Below, piece after piece: positions 2 to 34,061 of a stretch of DNA of 34,708 bases. Source of the DNA: Deltaproteobacteria bacterium. GTDB taxonomy: Bacteria; Desulfobacterota; Binatia; UBA9968. The notes beneath the pieces were generated by a model, which made no database searches, was not told the origin of the DNA, and saw only the letters and a list, made by a program, of their open reading frames with translations. The stretch is taken from positions 1 to 34,708 of the forward strand of contig JAUYJC010000286.1 in assembly GCA_030688735.1 (NCBI GenBank), given 5' to 3'. The stretch's first letter is position 1. The number at the start of each line of letters is the position of its first letter. The translations under genes were made by a program, and so were the position numbers.

Positions 2-328
2 GAAATCGTCAACCGGTGTGACGCGGTGATCACCGGCCTGGGCGCTTGAGGGTCATGCACGTCGTGGAGTGTCCACGACGCCATTGAGCTGCAAAAGAAA
101 GGAAAGCCGACGGTGACGCTCTGCCAGTCGATCTTCATGGAACTGGCGCGCACGGAGGCGAAGTTTTTCGGCGTTGCTAAATTGCCGCTGGTCGAGATCC
201 CTCATCATCCGAGCGGCGGCGCGCGGCCGGGCGAGCACCGGGCCGACGCGGAGGGGGCGGTTGGTTTAGTGAACGAGCGGCTGACTTTGGCGGCTCGGAC
301 TTCCGTCCAACAACGACGGGTGGGTTGA
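2..328 (+). CDS. UGSC-family (seleno)protein, 5'-truncated, in-frame TGA read as selenocysteine
   Basis: The reading frame entering the window at base 2 runs to the stop at 326-328 and is interrupted only by TGA at 47-49. Read through, the codons around it give GLGA-U-GSC-TSWSVHDA, which is the signature of the UGSC family, where U is selenocysteine or cysteine. After the motif the protein continues with KGKPTV, FFGVAKLPLVEIPHHPSGG and a C-terminal helix, as expected for the family. The family is known only as putative redox-type (seleno)proteins with no established reaction. A hairpin of SECIS type starts 10 nt after the TGA (see next entry). The N-terminal part lies outside the window. The next gene starts 18 nt downstream, so the two are probably co-transcribed. 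The alternative is that TGA is a true stop and translation restarts at GTG 113, but the coding match directly on both sides of TGA argues against this. Confidence 0.8.
47..80 (+). promoter_or_regulatory. Candidate bacterial SECIS element after UGA 47-49
   Basis: Bases 60-67 (CGTCGTGG) pair perfectly with 73-80 (CCACGACG), giving an 8-bp stem closed by the 5-nt loop AGTGT at 68-72. Eighteen nucleotides separate the TGA from the loop, and G is the second loop base. The published general bacterial SECIS model asks for a loop 16-37 nt after UGA and a G within the first two loop positions, and both are met. The hairpin lies wholly within the coding region, as expected in bacteria where SelB binds the stem-loop just downstream of the UGA. 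Confidence 0.72.
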
Positions 329-346: not shown

Positions 347-1420
347 ATGGAGATCGCCCGATTGACCTCACCCCTCGTCGAAGTCGAAGACAGCTGGGAA
401 GCGGCGAACGATTGGTTCCTGAAGGAAAAACTCAGCGACGGGTTGCCGATTGTGCCGCCGACGCCCGAGCGCGTCGCGCGTATGATCGAAGGGACGAACC
501 GCGATCCGCAGGAAGTGGTCGGCATCATTCCGCCCAAATGGGCGCCTTGCTCAATCGAAAAGATCGCCATCAACGCTGTCATGGCCGGCTGCCTGCCGGA
601 ATATTTACCCGTCGTTATCGCCGCGGTCGAAGCGGTTTGCGAGCCGCGTTTCAATCTTTACGGCGTGCAGGCGACCACCGGCTACGTTGGCCCGGCGTTG
701 CTCCTTAACGGTCCAATCAGAAAACAGCTTGATGTCAATTGCGACTCCGGTGTTTTTGGCCCGGGTTTTCGTTCCAATGCGACCATCGGACGCGCCATTC
801 GCTTGATCCTTATCGCTGTCGGTGGGGGATTTCCCGGTGAGACCGACCGCTCCACTTTCGGCTGGCCCGGCAAGTACACCATGTGCTTCGGTGAAAACCA
901 GGAAAAGAGTCCCTGGGAGCCCTATCACGTCGAATTCGGTTTTAAGCCGGAAACGAGCACGGTGACGGTGTTCGGCATCAACGGCTTCCTGCCGATTCAT
1001 ACCGCCGGCAATCGCGGCGAGCAGGCGCTGTCGTCCCTGGCCGAAGTGATCAAGATGCATCACGGCGTGAGCCATCTCGACGTCGGCAGTTTCGGCGGCG
1101 GCACGCCGCTGATTGCCCTCGGCATCGAAGACGCCGAGATCATGGCGCGGGACGGCATCACCAAGAAGCAGGTCAAGGATTATCTCTGGGAGCACGCTTC
1201 GCTGAAGTTCTCCGAAATCCCGGCGCGGCGCAAAGGTCATAAAAGCGACGAAGAATTGCTGCGCGAATCGCCGAACGTGACGCCCGACGGCATCGTTCAT
1301 CTTTCCACGAAGCCCGAAGACATCATGGTCGTGGTGCTCGGCGGCAAGCACCGCCACTCGGTGTTCCTACCGATGTGGACGGGGCGAAATACGCTCTGCG
1401 TGATCAAGCCGATTAGGTAA
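347..1420 (+). CDS. Conserved protein of unknown function, partner of the UGSC gene
   Basis: This is a 357-aa protein without signal peptide or clear membrane segments. The start ATG 347 follows a GGGGAAAGAG ribosome binding site. Near the N-terminus it has SDGLPIVPPTPERVARM (about residues 30-46), then IIPPKWAPCSIEKIAINAVMAG, and in the middle LDVNCDSGVFGPGFRSN followed by NATIGRAIRL. The C-terminus ends TGRNTLCVIKPIR. I do not recognise an enzyme family with known activity. My impression is that this kind of protein accompanies UGSC (seleno)proteins in other genomes, but I could not check this. Several cysteines (in APCSIEK, VNCDSG and NTLCVI) could be redox partners of the upstream Sec/Cys protein. 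The 18-nt spacing to the UGSC gene supports a shared transcript. Confidence 0.75.
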   Translation: MEIARLTSPLVEVEDSWEAANDWFLKEKLSDGLPIVPPTPERVARMIEGTNRDPQEVVGIIPPKWAPCSIEKIAINAVMAGCLPEYLPVVIAAVEAVCEPRFNLYGVQATTGYVGPALLLNGPIRKQLDVNCDSGVFGPGFRSNATIGRAIRLILIAVGGGFPGETDRSTFGWPGKYTMCFGENQEKSPWEPYHVEFGFKPETSTVTVFGINGFLPIHTAGNRGEQALSSLAEVIKMHHGVSHLDVGSFGGGTPLIALGIEDAEIMARDGITKKQVKDYLWEHASLKFSEIPARRKGHKSDEELLRESPNVTPDGIVHLSTKPEDIMVVVLGGKHRHSVFLPMWTGRNTLCVIKPIR

Positions 1421-11625: not shown

Positions 11626-11970
11626 TTATAGCAATGCCAGAGTATTCTTGAGAGCGCGTTCGACCTCGGCGAGCAGTGCGGGCGTCAGACTTCCCAACCG
11701 TTTGACCAGACGCCGTTTGTCGACCGCTTTGATCTGTTCGGTTACGACCTTGGATGCAAACGTCAGACGGGCAACCCCCTTGGGTATGATCGCGTGACTG
11801 GGAGAGAGATGCGCCGTGTTCTTGGTCAGTGGGACGATGACCACGAGTCGGCTGAACTGATTGATACTATCGTTGGAGAGCACGATCACCGGCCGGGTCT
11901 TTTTGATCTCGACGCCGAGGGTGGGGTCGAGACTTGCGACGACGACATCACCCCGCTTTACGCCGACCAT
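11626..11970 (-). CDS. MazF/PemK-type toxin (endoribonuclease)
   Basis: This 114-aa protein opens with VKRGDVVVASLDPTLGVEIKKTRPVIVLSND, the standard N-terminus of MazF/PemK (CcdB-fold) toxins, and has VIVPLTKN and the C-terminal KRRLVKRLGSLTPALLAEVE. Such toxins cut mRNA at short sites and are neutralised by the upstream partner. Its start codon lies within the end of the antitoxin gene (23-bp overlap), which indicates translational coupling. Confidence 0.9.
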   Translation of the reverse strand: MVGVKRGDVVVASLDPTLGVEIKKTRPVIVLSNDSINQFSRLVVIVPLTKNTAHLSPSHAIIPKGVARLTFASKVVTEQIKAVDKRRLVKRLGSLTPALLAEVERALKNTLALL

Positions 11971-12253
11971 TGGTTTCCTCCAACTGCAAGATATCCCAGG
12001 CCTCTTGGTCGGTTAATTTCCACTCGCCCAACAGCTCGCGTTCCTCTTTCGCCTCGCGGTTCGAGCGCCGGCGATAGTAGGCTGCGTAATCGCGCTCCAG
12101 TTGCCTGCGTGCGACTGAATCGAGAAAGGACGTTAGCATGCTCGTGATCACACGGCTGCGGCGCGCTTTGGGAATGACGGCGTTGGCCCGCTTCACCAAG
12201 GCTCGGGGAAGTGAAACGCTTACGATTTCATATTGTCGTCGAGCGGCTGGCAT
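11948..12253 (-). CDS. Antitoxin paired with MazF/PemK, ribbon-helix-helix-like
   Basis: This protein of about 101 aa starts at the ATG at 12253, which has GGGAGG 7 nt upstream. A longer frame to 12319 lacks such a site. The N-terminal QYEIVSVSLPRALVKRANAVIP and RSRVITSMLTSFLD look like a ribbon-helix-helix DNA-binding segment. The charged C-terminal half (RREAKEERELLGEW, DQEAWDILQLEE) is the likely toxin-binding part. It precedes the toxin and overlaps it, as in mazEF operons, and probably represses its own promoter. Confidence 0.82.
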   Translation of the reverse strand: MPAARRQYEIVSVSLPRALVKRANAVIPKARRSRVITSMLTSFLDSVARRQLERDYAAYYRRRSNREAKEERELLGEWKLTDQEAWDILQLEETNGRRKAG

Positions 12254-12290
12254 AAGTTTACCTCCCAATTTGCATGGAAGATTTATATTA

Positions 12291-12319
12291 ACGGTATTCG
12301 ATAGAAGTGATGCTGTCAA
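12291..12319 (-). promoter_or_regulatory. Possible promoter of the mazEF-like operon
   Basis: On the minus strand a perfect TTGACA (12319-12314) is followed after 17 nt by TACCGT (12296-12291) as a weak -10. This places transcription start about 30 nt before the antitoxin ATG. The flanking AT-rich stretch could hold the antitoxin operator, but no clear palindrome is visible. Confidence 0.35.
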
Positions 12320-12395: not shown

Positions 12396-12439
12396 ATTTA
12401 TCGTTTTGACTGAGTGTACCGAGAATAGTACAGTTGTCT

Positions 12440-12790
12440 ATGAATTCCGGCCTCAAACGTTTGCCCGCTCACTTCTATCGATCCGAAGGCGGTCGAGAAC
12501 CCGTGCGGGAATGGCTGAAGGGGCTTGAGCGCGAGAACCGAAAGGTTGTCGGGGAAGATATAAAGGACGTTGAGTTTTCTTGGCCTATCGGCATGCCGCT
12601 CGTCAGATCGCTTGGCCGCGAATTGTGGGAAGTCAGGAGCCGCTTGTCACGAGGGCGGATCGCCCGGGTTCTGTTCTGTGTAGAGCGGCAACGGATGGTG
12701 TTGCTCCACGGTTTCATCAAGAAAACCCAAAAGACACCGAGACATGATATCGACTTGGCGCTTAAACGTAAAAGGGAAGGCGGCATATGA
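12440..12790 (+). CDS. HigB/RelE-type toxin (Gp49-like family)
   Basis: This protein is about 116 aa. ATG 12440 is preferred over TTG 12434, though neither has a strong ribosome binding site. Features are AHFYRSEGGREPVREWLKGL, the core GMPLVRSLGRELWEVRS and RVLFCVERQRMVLLHGFIKKTQKTP, the hallmark of Gp49/HigB-type toxins of the RelE superfamily, which cleave ribosome-bound mRNA. Its stop overlaps the antitoxin start in an ATGA. The last 39 bases are duplicated at 15084-15122. Confidence 0.9.
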   Translation: MNSGLKRLPAHFYRSEGGREPVREWLKGLERENRKVVGEDIKDVEFSWPIGMPLVRSLGRELWEVRSRLSRGRIARVLFCVERQRMVLLHGFIKKTQKTPRHDIDLALKRKREGGI

Positions 12791-13068
12791 AAAAGAAGCA
12801 CATCGGGTCATCCTTTGATAGCTGGCTGCGAGAGGAAGGCATTTATGAAGAGGTCGCCGCATCTGCAATCAAGCGCGTTCTCGCCCGGCAAGTCGCAGCG
12901 GCAATGAAAGAGAGGAAATTTTCTAAGTCGGAGATGGCCCGGCGGATGCACACCAGCCGCGCTGCGCTCGATCGCCTGCTTGATCCCGAGTATGATGGCA
13001 TTACCTTGAACACGCTTAAAAAAGCAGCCACGGCGGTGGGCCGTCAACTCCGGCTAGAACTTATTTAG
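12787..13068 (+). CDS. HigA-type antitoxin (XRE-family HTH)
   Basis: This 93-aa protein starts in the ATGA overlap with the toxin stop. It begins MKKKHIGSSFDSWL, has a helix-turn-helix in KFSKSEMARRMHTSRAALDRLL (about residues 44-65) and ends TAVGRQLRLELI. This is the usual partner of Gp49-type toxins: it neutralises the toxin and binds the operon promoter. The first codons are duplicated at 15119-15150. Confidence 0.9.
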   Translation: MKKKHIGSSFDSWLREEGIYEEVAASAIKRVLARQVAAAMKERKFSKSEMARRMHTSRAALDRLLDPEYDGITLNTLKKAATAVGRQLRLELI

Positions 13069-33773: not shown

Positions 33774-34061
33774 TTACTCCTTCCACTTTGCCTCATCGTA
33801 GTCGGCGTGTGTGAGCACAGCCCGAATGTAGATCTTCTTTCGATTATAGTGAATGGCCGCGATCAAGCGAACTCTATTCCCGCCGATGTTGAACACAGTC
33901 AGTTTACCAACTTGATCGGCAGATGAAAACCTGGCTCGCAATTCAGCAAAATTCGAGAAATCATTGTGCTTCGCCAAGCTGTACCAACGAGCCAAGGCCG
34001 TTTTTGCTTCGGGATATTGCTCGGCAAATTCATTGAGGCGTTTGCGGGTGATCACATGCAT
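33774..34061 (-). CDS. HigB-type toxin (PF09907-like mRNA interferase)
   Basis: This is a 95-aa protein, MHVITRKRLNEFAEQYPEAK. TALARWYSLAKHNDFSNFAELRARF, VFNIGGNRVRLIAAIHYNRKKIYIRAVLTHADYD is the standard sequence pattern of HigB toxins, including the C-terminal LTHADYD. It precedes the antitoxin, the reversed order that defines higBA operons. It would cleave mRNA on translating ribosomes. Confidence 0.92.
   Translation of the reverse strand: MHVITRKRLNEFAEQYPEAKTALARWYSLAKHNDFSNFAELRARFSSADQVGKLTVFNIGGNRVRLIAAIHYNRKKIYIRAVLTHADYDEAKWKE

Follow-up and report, generated by a model that had tools for sequence, protein, structure and literature searches.

A gene at positions 2-328 of the analysed DNA (34,708 nucleotides from a bin of a Binatia-like deltaproteobacterial host, hereafter the window) is supported, on the sequence evidence, as a selenoprotein gene of the UGSC family that carries a bacterial-type SECIS hairpin and belongs to a host with a complete selenocysteine (Sec) machinery. 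The hairpin at 60-80 almost certainly directs SelB and tRNA-Sec to decode the in-frame UGA at 47-49 as Sec. The conserved pairing of this gene with the next one, at 347-1420, argues that the two products very probably act as a complex. The selenoprotein call itself is ordinary, the window copy being a genuine additional member of a known selenoprotein family; what goes beyond that family is the pairing with the partner, homology to the C-terminal domain of GrdB, and a modelled alpha/beta fold. The features on which the argument turns are the following.

2..328, forward strand: UGSC selenoprotein gene, 3' part (residues 81-188 of 188 plus stop), with a PF24696 match running across the TGA
47..49, forward strand: UGA read as Sec-96, motif AUGSCTSW; TGA in all related copies that cover the site, Cys in some homologues
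60..80, forward strand: predicted SECIS hairpin, stem 60-68/72-80, G as second base of AGTGT
326..328, forward strand: terminating TGA of the UGSC gene, shortly past the end of the PF24696 match (profile position 171 of 172, residue 95 of the window piece)
347..1420, forward strand: partner gene, 357 aa, adjoining UGSC and outside any Pfam or NCBIfam family
C530:9012-9250: UGSC gene, 5' part, on contig C530
C530:5056-6746: UGSC(TGA)-partner pair, same genome
C158:8017-9630: UGSC(TGA)-partner pair, same genome (these last two are the further pairs L035 and L036)

From base 2 onward the frame stays open as far as the stop TGA at 326-328, its sole interruption being the TGA at 47-49. Translated with that TGA as Sec, the 108 residues of the window piece match PF24696 (UGSC) with an E-value of 2.3e-26 (93.4 bits, profile positions 78-171 of 172) and NCBIfam NF041046 with 3.2e-22, and similarity is present on both flanks of the TGA, which bears out its reading as Sec in the initial annotation. 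That annotation had also taken 2-328 for the gene; the reading frame stands, but the window holds the 3' part only, and the 5' part lies on C530, whose final 141 bases are the first 141 of the window in an exact overlap that has no other full-length occurrence in the bin. Joined, the two contigs encode a protein of 188 residues with Sec at position 96, starting at an ATG preceded by an AGGAGG-type ribosome site. The joined protein reaches 142.2 bits against PF24696 (E 2.4e-41; gathering cut-off 25 bits), so the proposed family membership holds, as do the other family traits, namely a match along the whole profile, Sec in U-G-S-C, a bacterial SECIS and homologues with Cys. It departs from the family in scoring 112.2 bits against NF041046, below the NCBI curated equivalog cut-off of 125 bits though far above that of Pfam, and in having a separate rather than a fused partner; a paralogue from this genome reaches 132.4 bits. 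The accession first given for the family, PF20696, has to be replaced by PF24696, as it denotes the unrelated UbiD_C, which has 57 matches of its own in the bin, i.e. many UbiD-type decarboxylases.

How constant is the UGA? UGSC was found in 28 of the 35 genomes of the order, and every one of the roughly 70 copies that cover the site in these 28 genomes has TGA there, the two order-level copies that lack it being fragments that end short of the site. The homologues run on past the TGA, whereas the initial annotation had named frames ending there as evidence against the call. A phylum-wide draw found UGSC in 30 of 297 genomes; a few of these hold many paralogues, a handful of them without TGA. 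Three genomes (G067, G241 and G285) each hold at least 11 paralogous UGSC fusions, about 600 aa long; several have no TGA and some adjoin TGA copies, and it is possible that they form Sec/non-Sec subunit pairs. In a wider genome collection a Cys codon replaces the TGA in Natrialba asiatica, Mycobacterium szulgai, M. gordonae and one Binatia contig, and an exchange of Sec and Cys at one column classically marks a genuine Sec site. Sec with Cys at +3 is kept in nearly all copies; a divergent UGSC-partner fusion, L063, has U-S-T-C instead of U-G-S-C.

The hairpin has the geometry first described for it: a perfectly paired stem at 60-67/73-80 (CGTCGTGG/CCACGACG) that begins 10 nt after the UGA, and a loop AGTGT, 18 nt from the UGA, with G in second place. 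It thereby conforms to the bacterial SECIS model, in which a hairpin lies just after the UGA and has an early G in a small loop (PMC1088965). RNA folding adds a pair, A68-U72, giving 9 bp and the loop GUG (MFE -21.6, z -2.3). Taken alone, the window hairpin is modest, 9 of 200 codon-reshuffled versions folding equally well. The comparison was therefore made over 95 distinct Sec sites, with the proteins held fixed and the codons redrawn 200 times from each locus's own usage. At least 8 of the 9 pairs form at 65 of these sites against 6.1 expected from the reshuffles (maximum 15); mean pairing is 7.56 of 9 as opposed to 5.14 (maximum 5.57), and mean MFE -17.1 as opposed to -12.3. The loop codon is AGT at 77 of the 95 sites, while AGT makes up 10% of the Ser codons in the partner genes of the same loci, and the arms of homologues show compensated changes (TCGTGGA/TCCACGA, TCGTGCA/TGCACGA, TCGGGCA/TGCTCGA, TCATGGA/TCCATGA). 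Judged from these 95 related sites, which share descent and so are not independent, the hairpin is under selection beyond that on the protein sequence. The Cys-type genes number four, which does not suffice for a control, and two of them retain part of the stem.

The host bin (6.76 Mb in 634 contigs, 90% complete) encodes what decoding would need. The genes selA, selB and selD are adjacent on contig C482, with scores far above the cut-offs in every case, selD having an in-frame TGA of its own, and there is one tRNA-Sec (74 bits), for which ARAGORN agrees and gives the anticodon TCA. The machinery on which the initial annotation had made its call depend, in particular selB and selC, is thus in place. 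Five full-length genes of the GrdB family are also found (on C341, C121, C510, C12 and C8), and in that on C341 a TGA stands in frame at the expected Sec site (STUGTSTRSG), from which it appears that the bin probably carries a rich selenoproteome.

The adjoining gene at 347-1420 had gone unmentioned in the initial annotation. Profile searches found no Pfam or NCBIfam family for its product. Across the partner sequences D31, C82, T111, R149, E183 and W190 are invariant, and C180 is present in 68 of 70. In three divergent fusions (L063, L064 and L065) the partner Cys that is invariant elsewhere gives way to Ala (MAGA instead of MAGC). Each of the three UGSC copies in the genome is followed by a partner gene, and there are exactly three partner genes in total. 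A short way upstream of the window's gene, beyond two NMT1-like binding proteins, lies the pair on C530, so that the window pair belongs to a tandem arrangement. Among the order-level loci the partner adjoins UGSC in 30 of 30, and when the partner served as bait in the genome collection, UGSC lay within 1 kb in 67 of the 79 usable loci, from Binatia, Chloroflexi, Betaproteobacteria, Rokubacteria, Acidobacteria, a Bacillus, a haloarchaeon and mycobacteria. The order of the two genes varies, UGSC being upstream of the partner in 44 loci and downstream in 25 (both in two). Mostly Poribacteria account for the 12 of 79 partner loci without an adjoining UGSC; six of their loci (L102, L106, L107, L114, L115 and L117) have a solitary, shorter partner with no UGSC found nearby.

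Some loci join the two genes outright: eight candidate fusions were flagged as one frame, and seven of them were read out as one ORF each, about 500-620 residues long. One, with Sec, belongs to a cultured strain, Bacillus dakarensis (L132:7422-9278), and its C-terminus shows a weak NifU-like domain (E 0.0019, below the cut-off) that would fit an iron-sulfur electron donor. A fusion of UGSC to an uncharacterised domain, Unknown_1, was reported in the 2008 GOS paper (PMC2398784), so that the pairing may be partly known already; Unknown_1 is possibly the partner family of 347-1420.

Does UGSC resemble any selenoprotein of known chemistry? Matches to TIGR01917 (GrdB) occur in 9 of 41 UGSC members, the best at 1.6e-4, and PrdB, GrdF and GrdH are also hit, weakly but repeatedly. 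An hhalign comparison of UGSC with GrdB of the same phylum gave 95.5% (P 1.6e-8) over 85 columns, Sec falling on Sec. On these alignments the part of UGSC surrounding Sec is remotely homologous to the GrdB C-terminal domain. The columns shared with GrdB/PrdB (PF07355) start shortly ahead of Sec, extend to the C-terminus and set UGSCTSW...GxPTV...IPHP(L)G of UGSC beside UGTCTRC...GIPTV...IPHPLG of GrdB. The differences are equally clear: UGSC does not have the GrdB N-terminal domain, Pfam scans gave no PF07355 match, the second Cys of GrdB UxxCxxC is usually Trp in UGSC, and, unlike GrdB/PrdB, UGSC is present, in its Cys form, in organisms like Natrialba and Mycobacterium. GrdB operates with a pyruvoyl subunit. 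The UGSC partner had no relevant match in NCBIfam, the search by which the GrdE/PrdA pyruvoyl type was considered, and kinship of the partner with the N-terminal part of GrdB was rejected (hhalign 0.4%).

AlphaFold2 modelled a natural fusion, L089, with a pLDDT of 95.6 and a pTM of 0.94, so that the predicted packing of its domains is confident. The UGSC domain of the model is an alpha/beta fold of repeating strand-helix units, and Sec opens the helix that follows the fourth strand. Foldseek lists PurE, lumazine synthase, DNPH1 and flavodoxin-type domains as its neighbours, none of them below an E-value of 0.001, and thioredoxin is absent from the 50 matches listed. The fold is thus predicted to be alpha/beta rather than thioredoxin-like, the modelled topology differing from the Trx-type beta-alpha-beta-alpha-beta-beta-alpha order, which contradicts the published guess. 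For the partner by itself (pLDDT 92.9) the PDB offers nothing significant (best E 0.0017, TM about 0.2); barbiturase and class I fumarase are its weak best matches (E 0.002-0.008, prob about 0.5), and kinship with class I fumarase was found unsupported by hhalign (2.3%). Sequence searches of the PDB with UGSC and with the partner returned nothing relevant.

The best reading of UGSC and its partner is a two-part selenoenzyme with GrdB-like selenolate chemistry, a distant cousin of the selenoprotein B of glycine and proline reductases. The core of this explanation, a selenoprotein that acts with its partner, is held with high confidence, a judgement that leaves the chemistry aside. For the chemistry, we infer complex formation, attack by a selenolate, resolution by Cys and an organic-acid substrate. 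The Sec selenolate, placed at a helix start in an alpha/beta domain as in the GrdB/PrdB selenoproteins, would attack a small organic acid, bound by the partner, at an electrophilic carbon or another bond; the Cys of U-G-S-C, three residues on, would resolve the intermediate as a selenenyl-sulfide, which a cellular thiol or an iron-sulfur donor would then reduce. Taken as a whole, this mechanism, drawn by analogy, is tentative, its chances being a little short of even. Around the gene, the window contains two NMT1-type binding proteins, an enoyl-CoA hydratase, an acyl-CoA dehydrogenase and two family III CoA-transferases, neighbours that fit organic-acid catabolism, though such genes are common here. 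In a survey of neighbouring genes TctC receptors were the commonest (21 of 127 ORFs); they are very abundant in many of these lineages generally, and no substrate is inferred from them. The window also contains toxin-antitoxin-like genes: a MazF-like toxin with a small upstream ORF (11626-12319), a Gp49-like gene with an HTH partner (12434-13068) and a HigB toxin (33774-34061).

Three other explanations bear on different parts of this reading. The TGA might have arisen by a sequencing error, or the gene might be dead and the TGA a decayed stop, a suspicion to which the metagenomic origin of the bin and the truncation of the gene by a contig end give some occasion; with the same codon TGA in about 70 related genes, a hairpin maintained by selection, two contigs identical over the TGA site and a Sec machinery in the host, such an explanation is extremely improbable. 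Two further proposals accept the selenoprotein and dispute its chemistry. UGSC might be a thiol-disulfide oxidoreductase of the ordinary kind, with a thioredoxin-like fold, that reduces protein or small disulfides, the partner being an accessory. The UxxC redox motif is common to UGSC and the thioredoxin-like selenoproteins, and the 2008 GOS paper considered a Trx-fold likely (PMC2398784); the predicted fold differs, however, the AlphaFold2 model being alpha/beta and without thioredoxin among its listed matches, and the sequence similarity of UGSC points to GrdB/PrdB instead, so that this explanation is unlikely.

Equally unlikely is a non-redox lyase or hydrolase in which the partner would be catalytic and Sec would serve as a metal ligand or acid-base group. 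It could draw on the partner's best, if weak, structural matches to barbiturase and class I fumarase and on the two near-invariant Cys of the partner, but TM-scores of about 0.2, the fumarase hhalign figure and the homology to GrdB argue against it, and Sec with Cys at +3 in nearly all copies suits redox chemistry better.

What would the GrdB-like selenoenzyme mean for the family? UGSC, recognised as a selenoprotein family from marine metagenomes onward, was among the commonest selenoproteins of metagenomes, with 255 genes in the 2008 GOS set (PMC2398784), and a 2026 review still counts families like UGSC as functionally uncharacterised (PMC13188914). UGSC and its partner may, at somewhat less than even chances, constitute a previously unrecognised two-component or fused selenoenzyme, its partner of a fold with no significant solved match, that would catabolise some organic compound, including in organisms that are not known to carry out Stickland metabolism. 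With a near-constant partner, natural fusions in a cultured Bacillus and a link to the catalytic domain of GrdB, the function of UGSC is now testable.
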